A DNA stretch of 64,000 bases from Myxococcus xanthus (GTDB lineage Bacteria > Myxococcota > Myxococcia > Myxococcales > Myxococcaceae), in NCBI RefSeq assembly GCF_006402735.1, contig NZ_CP017174.1, forward strand, positions 3,723,001-3,787,000, given 5' to 3'. Of this stretch, positions 20,693-24,515 are shown piece by piece (within the stretch, counting starts at the first letter, position 1; each line of letters opens with the position of its first letter). The notes beneath the pieces were generated by a model. It saw nothing but the letters and a program-made list of their open reading frames with translations. It did no database searches and had not been told where the DNA came from. The translations under genes and the position numbers were made by a program.

Positions 20693-21460
20693 TCAGGCCG
20701 TGGGCGCTTGGATTTCCACGCGCAGCAGCTGACGGCCAATGAGGAAGTGGTCCCCGTTGTCCACGAAGGTGGGGCCCGACAGGCGGATGAAGGTGCCGTT
20801 GGACGAGCCCACGTCCCGGACCTGCAGCCGGTCCTGCCGCACCTGCAGCACGGCGTGCCGCCCGGACACGAAGCCGTCCGTGGGGAAGGTGAGGTCGCCT
20901 TGCTCGCGGCCCAGGAGATTGTCGCCTTCGCGCAGGGGGAAGGCGCCGCCTCGCAGGCCTCCCTCCAGCAGTTGCACCAGCCGCAGCCGGTAGCCGGGAT
21001 CCGGTGAACCCCAGACCTGGGTTCCGCCCGGTCCGGTGGCCGCGGTGGGAATGGGCTCCAGCACCAGCCGCTGGCGTCCCAGTCGCAGCTCGCCGCCAGG
21101 GGACAGCTCTCGCTCCTGGCGCAGGCGGACGAAGACGCCGTTGGCGCCGCCTACGTCCTCCACGGCCAGCCGGATGCCGGAGAAGAAGAACCGGACCTGG
21201 AGCGGCATGATGAAGGGGTCGTCCGTGAGCGAGATGTCCGCCTGCTGGCCGCAGGTGAGGGTGTCGCGCTGCATGCGGACGACGGACTCGGGGCCGCCAT
21301 CGGCGCGCACCACGCGGATGGAGACCTGCGGGCGCGAAGCGACGCTGGCGACGGCCATCACCATTGTTCCGGAGCGCAGCGGCGAGCCGCACGCCCGGCA
21401 GACGGAGGCGTCCCGAGGGTTTTCGGTGTCACAGCGGGGGCAGTATTCCATCGCGTCCAT
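20693..21460 (-). CDS. Zinc-ribbon double-FHA domain protein
   Basis: A 255-residue cytosolic protein. The N-terminus is a short zinc ribbon, CPRC-X10-CRACG. Two forkhead-associated (FHA) domains follow. The first (about 46-130) is degenerate: it lacks the GR and SxxH residues but keeps a terminal GGANGVFV. The second (about 155-250) is canonical, with LLGREQGD, SGRHA and DVGSSNGTFIRL. FHA domains read phosphothreonine, so its natural partner is a Ser/Thr kinase; one is encoded divergently 120 bases away with the same zinc-ribbon module. A second in-frame ATG at 21451 is an alternative start. Confidence 0.85.
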   Translation of the reverse strand: MDAMEYCPRCDTENPRDASVCRACGSPLRSGTMVMAVASVASRPQVSIRVVRADGGPESVVRMQRDTLTCGQQADISLTDDPFIMPLQVRFFFSGIRLAVEDVGGANGVFVRLRQERELSPGGELRLGRQRLVLEPIPTAATGPGGTQVWGSPDPGYRLRLVQLLEGGLRGGAFPLREGDNLLGREQGDLTFPTDGFVSGRHAVLQVRQDRLQVRDVGSSNGTFIRLSGPTFVDNGDHFLIGRQLLRVEIQAPTA

Positions 21461-21580
21461 GGAGGGCTAGGGGTTTTACCAGGGCCGGGGGCCGGTTGCT
21501 CGACTTGCGTTGCACGCGGCTTGCCCCCCACCCGAGCGGCGTGATGAAGTCGGTGTCCCACCCCTTTGGGGATCGTTTCC

Positions 21581-23296
21581 TTGCACTGCCCCTCCTGCGG
21601 CGCTGACGCCCAAGAATCTTCCCGTTTCTGTCCCGCCTGTGGCGCGACCCTCGTGCGTACGCCCGATGCGGACGAGTACGTCGGCAAGACGATTGCCTAC
21701 AAGTACCGGGTCGAAGCCCTCATTGGCGAGGGCGGCATGGGCAAGGTGTTCCGCGCCCGGCAGCTCTCCCTGGACAAGGTGGTGGTGCTGAAGGTGCTTC
21801 GGCACACGCTCCTGTCGGACGAGCGCACCGTGGCGCGCTTCCAGCGCGAGGCCAAGGCCGCCAGCCGCCTCAACCACCCCAACTCCATCAGCGTGCTCGA
21901 CTTCGGCCAGGCCGAGGACGGGGCCTTGTTCATCGCCATGGAGTACGTGGCGGGGCAGGACCTGCACCAGATTCTCAGCCGCGAGTGGCCCCTGAACGAG
22001 GGGCGCGTGGTGCGCATCGTCAGCCAGGTGCTGAGCGCGTTGTCGGACGCGCACGGCGCCGGCGTCATCCACCGCGACCTCAAGCCCGAGAACATCATGG
22101 TGGAGCCGCGGCGCAACGAGCCCGACTTCGTCAAGGTGTTGGACTTCGGCATCGCGAAGATCACCGACTCCACGGACGACGGTCCGGCGCTCACCCGCGC
22201 GGGCTTCGTGTGCGGCACCCCCGAATACATGTCGCCCGAGCAGGCGCGGGGCTCGCAGCTCGACCACCGCTCGGACCTGTACGCGGTGGGCGTCATCCTC
22301 TACCAGTTGATGACGGGCTTGCTGCCCTTCGAGTCGGACTCGGCGGTGGGCTTCGCCACCAAGCACCTGACCGAGGAGCCGCCGCCGCCCACGCGCCGCC
22401 GGCCGGATGCGCGAATCTCTCCGGCCATGGAGCGGCTCATCCTCCGGGCGCTGTCCAAGAACCCGGCGGACCGGCCCGCCAGCGCCGAGGCATTCAAGGC
22501 CGAGCTGCAGGCCGTGGACAAGGAACGCCGCCGGATGGACTCGGCGCCGCGGCGCGCGGCCAACTCGTCGGCGGTGCTGGCGCCGTTGCCGCGCAAGTCC
22601 GCCGCCGGTCCGCAGAGTGATGTCCGGGATTCCACGCTGACCGGGTGGGGCAACGAAGTGACCATGGAGGCCACGGTGCGCGCCCTGCCGGGTGTGCTCG
22701 AGCCGTTGCCCGCGAACGCCGACGCGATGGCCGCCACGCGTGAGCATACGGACTCGCTGGTCCACACGCAGCCGGGTGCCGGCGGCAGCAGCGGGGTGGC
22801 GTTCTTCTTCAAGTCGCTGACCATCCTGCTGGTGGTCGCCGCGCTGGGCTTCTTCGCCTACTACTTCTTCACGGGCGCTGGCAGCGGAGGCGTGCAGGAC
22901 CTGCCCTACGCGCTGCCCACGAATGCGCCGGTGCCAGCGGGGGCCAACAACTCCGCCGTGGGCGCGAGCCCCGACGTGCCGCTCTACGACCGGGCCATTG
23001 TCTCGGGCGCGCGCAACGTCGAGCGCGCGCTGGAGCTGGCGCGAGAGGGTGACAAGGCACTGCAGCGCGCGGACGTGGGGCTTGCGGCGACGAAGTACCG
23101 CGAGGCCTTCAGCCGCAGTGGTGACCCGGAGCTGGCCCTGAAGCTGGGCGAGGTCTACTGGCACCGGCAGAACCCGGACAAGGAAGAGGCCCGGGGCTGG
23201 TGGAATCGTCACCTGCGCGAGCAGCCCTCCTCCAAGGCGCGTGCCCTCATTGAGCAGCGCCTGAGCGGCACCTTGGCGCAGCCCACGTCGCCCTGA
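21581..23296 (+). CDS. Zinc-ribbon transmembrane Ser/Thr protein kinase
   Basis: A 571-residue protein. TTG 21581 is the preferred start (GGGGA at 21568-21572); TTG 21566 would add five residues. An N-terminal zinc ribbon CPSC-X10-CPACG precedes a complete kinase domain (about 40-310): GEGGMGKVF, Lys in VVLKVLR, HRDLKPEN, DFGIAK and SPEQ. After a 95-residue linker comes one membrane helix (SLTILLVVAALGFFAYYFF). The roughly 140-residue region beyond the membrane contains a TPR-like helical pattern (ALQRADVGLAATKYREAF). All catalytic residues are present. It sits between two double-FHA genes, divergent from one and convergent with the other. Confidence 0.92.
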   Translation: MHCPSCGADAQESSRFCPACGATLVRTPDADEYVGKTIAYKYRVEALIGEGGMGKVFRARQLSLDKVVVLKVLRHTLLSDERTVARFQREAKAASRLNHPNSISVLDFGQAEDGALFIAMEYVAGQDLHQILSREWPLNEGRVVRIVSQVLSALSDAHGAGVIHRDLKPENIMVEPRRNEPDFVKVLDFGIAKITDSTDDGPALTRAGFVCGTPEYMSPEQARGSQLDHRSDLYAVGVILYQLMTGLLPFESDSAVGFATKHLTEEPPPPTRRRPDARISPAMERLILRALSKNPADRPASAEAFKAELQAVDKERRRMDSAPRRAANSSAVLAPLPRKSAAGPQSDVRDSTLTGWGNEVTMEATVRALPGVLEPLPANADAMAATREHTDSLVHTQPGAGGSSGVAFFFKSLTILLVVAALGFFAYYFFTGAGSGGVQDLPYALPTNAPVPAGANNSAVGASPDVPLYDRAIVSGARNVERALELAREGDKALQRADVGLAATKYREAFSRSGDPELALKLGEVYWHRQNPDKEEARGWWNRHLREQPSSKARALIEQRLSGTLAQPTSP

Positions 23297-23399
23297 CGGG
23301 TGAGCCCCGAGGGGCGGTGTCGGCCTGCCGCCCTGGGGCACGAAGCTTCATGGCTTCAGGGCACCGGGGCGTATGCCCCACGGCACAGCCTGCCCCGCG

Positions 23400-24515
23400 T
23401 CAGCCCAGCGTCTCCACCTGAAGCACGTGCTGTCCCAGGCGGACGCGGTCTCCCGGACGCAGCGGACGCTCGACGCCGCTCGCGAGGCGCACATAGGTGC
23501 CCAGGCCTCCGGACAAGTCCCTCAGCAGGGCACCGGTGGGCGTGGGGGACAGCTCGCAGTGGCGGCCCGCGAGGCCCTCGTCGCCGGGGAAGCTCAAGTC
23601 ACAGTGGGCCAGTCCGATGGTGAGCAGCGGCGCCGCCGTCATCACCGCGCGTCCCGCCCGGCCACCGACGAGCATCTCCTCCACACCATAGACGGCCTGC
23701 CCCAGTGGCACCGGGGCGCCATAGATGACGGGTCGTCCCGTCACGGGGGGCTGGGGCTCCAGTCGGCCCGTGAAACGGAACAGCCGCTGGCCCGCGCTGA
23801 AGAGGGTGCGCGGGGTGAGGGCTTCCGTGCCCCCAACAGTGACGAAGACGCCCGAGGCGCTGGACTCGTCCCGCACGTACAGCGCGCCATCCTTCACCAG
23901 GAAGGTGGCGTGTAGGGGCGACACGAAGGCGTCGTCCGCGAAGAGGATGGCGCCGCGCTGGCGGCCCACGACGCACCCGGTGACAGGCAGCTTGTAGCGC
24001 TGACCCCGGGCGGAGCCCGCGATGACCGCGAGCCCGAACCGGGAGGCGGCCGGAGGGGCAGGGCGGGGCGCCGTGGTGGCCGCGCCGGCCCGGCCGGGCA
24101 TCGCGCTGTCCGGAACCGGCGGGGGCGGACGGGTGGTGGCCGGGCCTGACGCGCCGCCCGTGCGGGCCATGATGCCCGGGGGCGCCGTGGGGGTGCGCTG
24201 CTGCGGCGGCCGTTCCACTGTCAGGCCCGCGGCGGTGGGGGGCGGCGTCCGGGCAGAGGGGCGCAGGCCCGGCGGAATGGCGCTGGGAGCGGGCGGAACC
24301 ACCGGCTCCGCCACCTTGCCGCCGGGGAAATTGGACACCGCGACCGGCCGGCTGCCGGTCGGCGTACCCGGCCGGGCGACGGCCAGGGGCGGCTTCGTGG
24401 CGGCGGGTTCGCCGAGCGCCTGGCCGCAGAGCACACATGCAGCCGCGCGAGGTGAGTTGTACCCGTCACAGTTCGGGCAGACCACGGCGAGGGAGGACAG
24501 CAGGAGCTGTGACAT
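23400..24515 (-). CDS. Zinc-ribbon double-FHA domain protein with Pro-rich linker
   Basis: A 371-residue protein from the ATG at 24515. It begins with a zinc ribbon, CPNC-X10-CVLCG, then a Pro/Ala-rich linker of about 110 residues, then two FHA domains. The first FHA (about 160-245) shows VVGRQRGA, SPLHA and a terminal ASGVFV; the second (about 275-370) keeps GRHCEL and a 'LSGGLGTYVRL' end. The plan is the same as that of the FHA gene at 20.7 kb, so the two are probably paralogues. Its 3' end faces the kinase gene, and its 5' end is divergent from relA. There is no membrane helix. Confidence 0.82.
   Translation of the reverse strand: MSQLLLSSLAVVCPNCDGYNSPRAAACVLCGQALGEPAATKPPLAVARPGTPTGSRPVAVSNFPGGKVAEPVVPPAPSAIPPGLRPSARTPPPTAAGLTVERPPQQRTPTAPPGIMARTGGASGPATTRPPPPVPDSAMPGRAGAATTAPRPAPPAASRFGLAVIAGSARGQRYKLPVTGCVVGRQRGAILFADDAFVSPLHATFLVKDGALYVRDESSASGVFVTVGGTEALTPRTLFSAGQRLFRFTGRLEPQPPVTGRPVIYGAPVPLGQAVYGVEEMLVGGRAGRAVMTAAPLLTIGLAHCDLSFPGDEGLAGRHCELSPTPTGALLRDLSGGLGTYVRLASGVERPLRPGDRVRLGQHVLQVETLG

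Follow-up and report, generated by a model that had tools for sequence, protein, structure and literature searches.

The stretch analysed here, called the window throughout, comprises 64,000 nucleotides of Myxococcus xanthus (assembly GCF_006402735.1, contig NZ_CP017174.1, forward-strand positions 3,723,001 to 3,787,000), and the host genome is 9.3 Mb long and consists of one contig. Three adjacent genes of the window, FHA1, KIN and FHA2, encode proteins that, judging by a gene order shared among myxobacterial families and with a few more distant relatives, probably form one signalling unit. FHA1 (20693..21460, - strand, 255 aa) is composed of a zinc ribbon, a linker, a degenerate FHA domain and an intact FHA domain. 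KIN (21566..23296, + strand, 576 aa) has a ribbon, a Ser/Thr kinase domain, a juxtamembrane segment, a transmembrane helix and a weak TPR match; its start is a TTG, with a second TTG 15 bases further in. FHA2 (23400..24515, - strand, 371 aa) carries a ribbon, a proline-rich linker, an FHA domain and a degenerate FHA domain. On the FHA1 side lies a DksA-like gene (20277..20639, +), followed by a diadenylate cyclase gene of the DacZ-like type (19269..20150, -), and on the FHA2 side lies a RelA/SpoT gene (24664..26883, +), for which an ATG was taken as the start although the first start of the frame is a GTG at 24580. The gaps from the DksA-like gene through FHA1, KIN and FHA2 to RelA are 53, 105, 103 and, counted to the chosen RelA ATG, 148 bases. 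An operon of the three genes was considered and rejected, since FHA1 and FHA2 lie on the - strand and KIN on the + strand.

The original prediction, made from the sequence of the window, described three adjacent genes whose products begin with CxxC-X10-CxxCG, and they are found where it placed them. The ribbon of FHA1 spans C7 to C24 (CPRC-X10-CRAC, 21389..21442, -), that of KIN C8 to C25 (CPSC-X10-CPAC, 21587..21640, +) and that of FHA2 C13 to C30 (CPNC-X10-CVLC, 24426..24479, -). In all three, exactly ten residues separate the cysteine pairs and a glycine follows the second pair. FHA1 and KIN pass the gathering cut-off of Zn_Ribbon_1 (PF13240; 27.0 and 27.8 bits, cut-off 25). FHA2 is not listed under this family and has a weak Pfam match only to DZR (E 0.028); its four cysteine columns are invariant in 39 alignment rows. 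A whole-genome search with Zn_Ribbon_1, which misses the FHA2 ribbon because of its divergence, gave 23 places at E <=10, and only KIN and FHA1 exceeded the curated cut-off. The motif itself was counted in 864 kb, made up of the window and 40 stretches of 20 kb, which contain 1094 frames that are >=100 aa long and have a GC content at third codon positions of at least 0.8. Six of these frames contain CxxC-X10-CxxC, namely the trio, a protein that we take to be RadA-like from its motif, a 214-aa frame and the upstream extension of the frame labelled COIL. Three such ribbons in a row are not due to chance. The idea of a common N-terminal tag was also rejected, given the two places above the Zn_Ribbon_1 cut-off in the genome and the three other motifs among the 1094 frames. 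The same spacing does occur elsewhere in the genome, for example in another kinase (L025, at ~2.36 Mb), which is one of two further kinases whose N-terminus bears a zinc-ribbon-like motif; the other lies at ~4.79 Mb, and an FHA protein is encoded ~2 kb away from it.

Two FHA stretches are given by Pfam for each of the FHA proteins, as had been predicted, and their residues at the four contact positions (R, S, H, N) differ. The first domain of FHA1 (21056..21304, -, borders approximate) has Q72, M85, Q88 and N107, so that the asparagine is kept and the contacts are lost. Its second domain (20735..20914, -) has R185, S199, H202 and N221, and it is the only one of the four domains with the full set. 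The first domain of FHA2 (23772..24026, -, borders approximate) keeps three of the four, R185, S199 and H202, with S221 in place of the asparagine. The second domain of FHA2 (23433..23615, -, borders approximate) is degenerate, with L302, A316, H319 and L338. The loss in the first domain of FHA1 had been seen correctly in the original prediction; its statement that the other three domains keep parts of their residues was too even, because these domains read RSHN (complete), RSHS and LAHL.

These differences extend to relatives. In the second domain of FHA1, R, S and H are found in 92/92 orthologs and N in 91/92, with one gap. In the family that we label f1, the first domain of FHA1 has Q for H in 72/72 and M or A for S in 70/72 sequences. 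The first domain of FHA2 in this family keeps R in 50, S in 52 and H in 52 of 52, with serine replacing N in 52/52, and the second has A for S and L for N in 51/52 each. Wider sets of 58 FHA1 and 14 FHA2 sequences are not dereplicated and may include some genomes of the same order, and they were sorted into FHA1 and FHA2 by scores and one ribbon letter, which was sometimes close. In these sets, the second FHA1 domain reads RSHN in 58/58, the first FHA1 domain is mostly canonical (R 53, S 47, H 57, N 56 of 58), and the second FHA2 domain is nearer to canonical (R 13, S 11, N 11 of 14). The residues indicate that one FHA domain is constant as a reader and that the three others have decayed by lineage; other mixtures of domain states are seen in families f5, f6 and f9. 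The losses in the first domain of FHA1 and the second of FHA2 co-occur in 51/51 f1 genomes compared, that of the window included. Having lost opposite domains, FHA1 and FHA2 may be mutually dependent.

The description of KIN as a transmembrane Ser/Thr kinase holds. Its kinase domain is complete (residues 47-311, 21704..22498, +; PF00069, E 1.7e-51), and the features of a Hanks-type Ser/Thr kinase are all present, with the VAIK lysine K76, HRD 169-171 and DFG 193-195 invariant in 41/41 aligned kinases. The one strongly hydrophobic stretch, residues 411-429 (22796..22852, +), is taken as the transmembrane helix. The region after this helix is short and bears the weak TPR match.

A survey of gene order, which the original prediction had proposed, found the trio conserved within the bacterial order and also at a few loci beyond the class. 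FHA1 has matches at E 1e-5 in 57/61 genomes, its own included (those in G032 and G035 are weak), and at E 1e-40 in 91/96 genomes of family f1. All three genes lie on one stretch in 56 of 96 tabulated genomes, and the same order with alternating strands is kept in 55 of these, that of the window included; G043 and G054, where the genes are on different stretches, do not enter this count. Where the neighbours are present, FHA2 is flanked by RelA in 48/48 and FHA1 by the DksA-like gene in 48/49. A profile search of the phylum gave a match in 157/193 genomes, 92 of them from family f1, and 20 stretches were fetched from it, 19 from outside the class and one from another order of the class. Five of the 20 have FHA2-KIN-FHA1. 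The one from the same class has the trio with three ribbons together with RelA, a DksA-like gene and a cyclase. Among the four from outside the class, one ribbon is present in the trio of L226 and two in that of L233, while FHA2 is cut by the end of the stretch or contig in L227 and L241; FHA1 and KIN are ~3.4 kb apart in L226 and ~5.4 kb apart in L227. In the remaining 15 stretches, some of them short contigs, FHA1 stands by itself or is accompanied by another FHA gene or by a kinase that matches less strongly. Two additional named records show RelA-FHA2-KIN-FHA1. Spread of FHA1 by plasmids was rejected, as the search gave no match. As a side observation, a record titled Comamonas sp. KCTC 72670 (BNCN01000010.1) contains an FHA1 95% identical to that of the window and looks like a mislabelled Myxococcus.

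The original prediction had named a very common N-terminus with no conserved neighbourhood as the case that would speak against it. The ribbon is in fact rare and the neighbourhood is conserved, so the local writer-reader circuit that it proposed is plausible; the age of the neighbourhood gives this circuit better support than could be told from one sequence. The other part of the proposal, a shared docking or oligomerisation device, did not fare as well, and this can be seen from the ribbons of relatives. Their states were tabulated for 96 genomes including that of the window, 76 from family f1 (of 96 searched) and 20 from other families. In f1, FHA1 and KIN agree in 71/71 readable genomes, with both ribbons present in 53 and both absent in 18. 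Left out of the 71 were two genomes with cut sequences, one in which the FHA1 label belongs to FHA2 at a contig end and two without the kinase; one genome with a split kinase match below the table threshold (G034) was counted via L061. Outside f1, agreement is 7/10, and a further ten of the 20 genomes, without a kinase in the locus, fall outside this comparison.

The agreement in f1, together with the identical spacing in all three proteins, is what favours the explanation of a single homotypic docking tag uniting the kinase and both readers. The 18 genomes in which FHA1 and KIN are without the whole ribbon are Myxococcaceae, and in this clade the inferred starts put the beginning of FHA1 directly before the first FHA domain and that of KIN directly before the kinase domain. 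FHA2 nevertheless retains its ribbon in all 13 of the 18 in which its start is readable. Of the four zeros for FHA2 in the table, two come from a split match (G061) and from a motif outside the span used (G041), the ribbon being present in both; G092 has a split match with no ribbon seen, its relative G090 has the ribbon, and none was found in G054. The three exceptions outside f1 also argue against a common tag, because FHA1 alone is without a ribbon and that of KIN is kept. In G037, FHA1 has no ribbon and the kinase, located elsewhere, matches from query residue 5; this kinase probably keeps its ribbon, which makes it a further case against the tag.

In a quickly built tree of 93 FHA1 cores with many open forks, ribbon state has at least six changes in FHA1 and two in KIN. 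Both inferred KIN changes fall where FHA1 is also without a ribbon, which is a point for the tag. Correlated loss was rejected as proof of joint function, however, because with two KIN events the sign test cannot reach significance, and it is not significant. In addition, the N-termini of FHA1 and KIN face each other across ~105 bases, so a single deletion over this divergent gap could have removed both ribbons. Identity of the ribbons was compared at the 14 non-cysteine positions. Among genera, it is 0.50 for FHA1, 0.55 for KIN and 0.41 for FHA2; between the proteins of one genome, it is 0.15 for FHA1-KIN, 0.27 for FHA1-FHA2 and 0.12 for KIN-FHA2, and these values of 0.12-0.27 are not above the 0.14-0.30 found between proteins of different genera. 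Since identity is high within each protein and no higher between proteins of the same genome than between genera, the ribbons are old and protein-specific, with no recently copied tag. Three distinct ribbons, each inherited with its own protein and kept by FHA proteins where the kinase is missing, make a common tag very improbable.

A number of observations weigh against a unit formed by the kinase and two readers. The order is different in G044, the kinase and FHA1 are on separate contigs in G037, FHA2 lies apart in G043, and in one additional locus the kinase flanked by two FHA genes lacks a ribbon. FHA genes near kinases are commoner than chance in this genome, with 10/43 FHA groups at <=3 kb from a kinase against a random mean of 2.7 (FHA1 and FHA2 are among those counted), so that adjacency alone is ordinary. 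The neighbouring relA and dksA may be coincidental. The juxtamembrane segment of KIN contains a [DE]-x-T motif in 33/41 rows, where 24.1 are expected by shuffling, and the motif is absent from four f7/f8, two f3 and two f1 rows; it is a weak candidate for the FHA ligand. Moreover, a kinase of at least 50% identity at E 1e-60 was found in none of the f4, f6 and g42 genomes searched and, in f5, in one of six (G058). Four f5/f6 genomes without such a kinase keep both FHA proteins with ribbons, so the pair does not need KIN.

These last results lead to an alternative in which the FHA1-FHA2 pair is the core, KIN is an optional neighbour and the ligand is made by other kinases of a genome that has 109 kinase-domain matches. 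Eight loci contain two ribbon-FHA-FHA genes in tandem on the same strand with no kinase between them, separated by -4 to 50 bases when the start nearest the upstream stop is used; in two more loci the gaps are wider (179 and 229 bases). The tandem spacing is as expected of co-expressed partners and suggests an operon for the FHA pairs of these other loci only. FHA1 with two ribbons is also found in Sorangium cellulosum and two Polyangium records, with no kinase scoring as KIN within the stretches examined. Against the alternative stands the position of KIN, which holds the slot between the FHA genes in 55/56 genomes that have all three on one stretch, as well as at a few loci beyond the class. 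We consider a core made of the FHA pair fairly unlikely.

The neighbouring genes provide the context for a possible output. Proteins such as DksA and RelA affect transcription and alarmones, and starvation is the trigger of myxobacterial development. The DacZ-like cyclase, which adjoins FHA1 or the DksA-like gene in many relatives, has haloarchaeal-type DacZ as its top NCBIfam model (E 6.4e-45; 153.6 bits, short of the cut-off of 430). A vWA gene (16404-18686) and then a coiled-coil-like gene (together 16404-19260, +) lie close to FHA1 in part of family f1; the former is reminiscent of the vWA partner of the archaeal protein ArnA, and in many relatives it is missing from the matches obtained. 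Further along, a single 667-aa protein with three tandem DsbA/thioredoxin-like stretches is encoded at 27436-29439 (-). No RNA element reached the gathering score at 15-30 kb of the window.

On balance, and with moderate confidence, we read the trio as an old phosphothreonine-signalling cassette of the Myxococcota, with a membrane kinase as the writer and two paralogous adaptors as the readers, located at a RelA/DksA-like/cyclase locus. KIN would sense through the region beyond the membrane, autophosphorylate in the threonine-containing juxtamembrane segment and phosphorylate partners. FHA1 would dock phosphothreonine through its second FHA domain, and FHA2 would act as a partner of FHA1, its first FHA domain being used weakly or as a scaffold. 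Each ribbon would be a small protein-protein or zinc/redox element suited to the protein that carries it, and the output would probably concern starvation signalling. What the sequences show are the domains, the residues left intact and the conservation of gene order, orientation and neighbours; the joint action of the three proteins, the autophosphorylation of KIN, the place of docking, the part played by the ribbons and the output are what we infer from them. A more far-reaching version, which we regard as unlikely, is that the cassette feeds envelope signals to alarmone control throughout the phylum: the kinase and a composite reader formed by the two diverged tandem-FHA paralogs, with one constant reader domain and three decayed scaffold domains, would be joined through their diverged ribbons, and their targets would be RelA, the DksA-like protein or the cyclase. 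To our knowledge, only a few of the circuits in which myxobacterial kinases take part have been described. A kinase and two readers with an order that recurs beyond one order of bacteria name their own candidate partners. Their place beside starvation-signalling genes raises the question of whether, in Myxococcota, the control of (p)ppGpp or c-di-AMP is subject to Ser/Thr phosphorylation.

Kinase-FHA phosphothreonine signalling is likewise found in Actinobacteria, where PknB works with GarA/OdhI and FhaA/FhaB. PknB is the top-scoring solved kinase for KIN, and FHA chains of OdhI, GarA and TB39.8, presumably Rv0020c, also match. Equivalence is not reached: KIN scores 338.2 bits with the PASTA-kinase (PknB equivalog) model (cut-off 450), FHA1 scores 62 bits with the FhaB model (cut-off 125) and 43 bits with the OdhI model (cut-off 200), and PASTA has no match among the Pfam rows for the locus proteins. 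Adjacency of FHA and kinase genes has been noted in M. tuberculosis (PMC1262709). Fusions of kinases and zinc ribbons occur in GTPase-centred conflict systems, which, as described in PMC7159879, are actinobacterial and accompanied by PP2C, vWA and GTPase-system genes. Apart from the nearby vWA gene, no PP2C or conflict-type GTPase was evident in nine window genes scanned. Literature searches, judged by title and abstract opening, found no paper describing the FHA1-KIN-FHA2 trio, and M. xanthus locus tags assumed for this region turned up in none.

The best profile match among solved chains is ArnA of the Sulfolobales (5a8i, 8s05; E 2.6e-11 for 5a8i). The match is carried by the FHA part, and the ribbon by itself matches weakly (i-Evalue 0.25). 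Like FHA1 and FHA2, ArnA, which works with ArnB and the kinases ArnC and ArnD, has an N-terminal four-cysteine ribbon, a flexible linker and an FHA domain of the phosphothreonine type in one protein; this is an analogy of layout, and orthology is not claimed. A layout of this kind allows the ribbons to be nucleic-acid-binding or redox/zinc-sensing heads, with FHA1 and FHA2 as phosphorylation-controlled regulators of transcription or translation, as reported for ArnA. The RelA and DksA-like neighbours, with their effects on transcription and alarmones, are in keeping with this, as is the binding of promoter DNA by the ArnA-ArnB complex (PMC10470591). It is still quite unlikely in our view, because the membrane kinase bears a ribbon too and the FHA1 ribbon is missing in many genomes that retain the rest of the protein.

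According to PMC6509490, ArnA binds the vWA protein ArnB, which is phosphorylated by ArnC and ArnD; this interaction weakens under nutrient limitation, and the role of the ArnA zinc finger is left open there. ArnA differs from the proteins of the trio in having a single FHA domain, in being archaeal and in its vWA-protein partner, and no adjoining kinase gene is described in the available parts of PMC6509490 and PMC10470591. The unusual part of the cassette is the constant position of a kinase and two diverging readers next to the genes for RelA, a DksA-like protein and a diadenylate cyclase.

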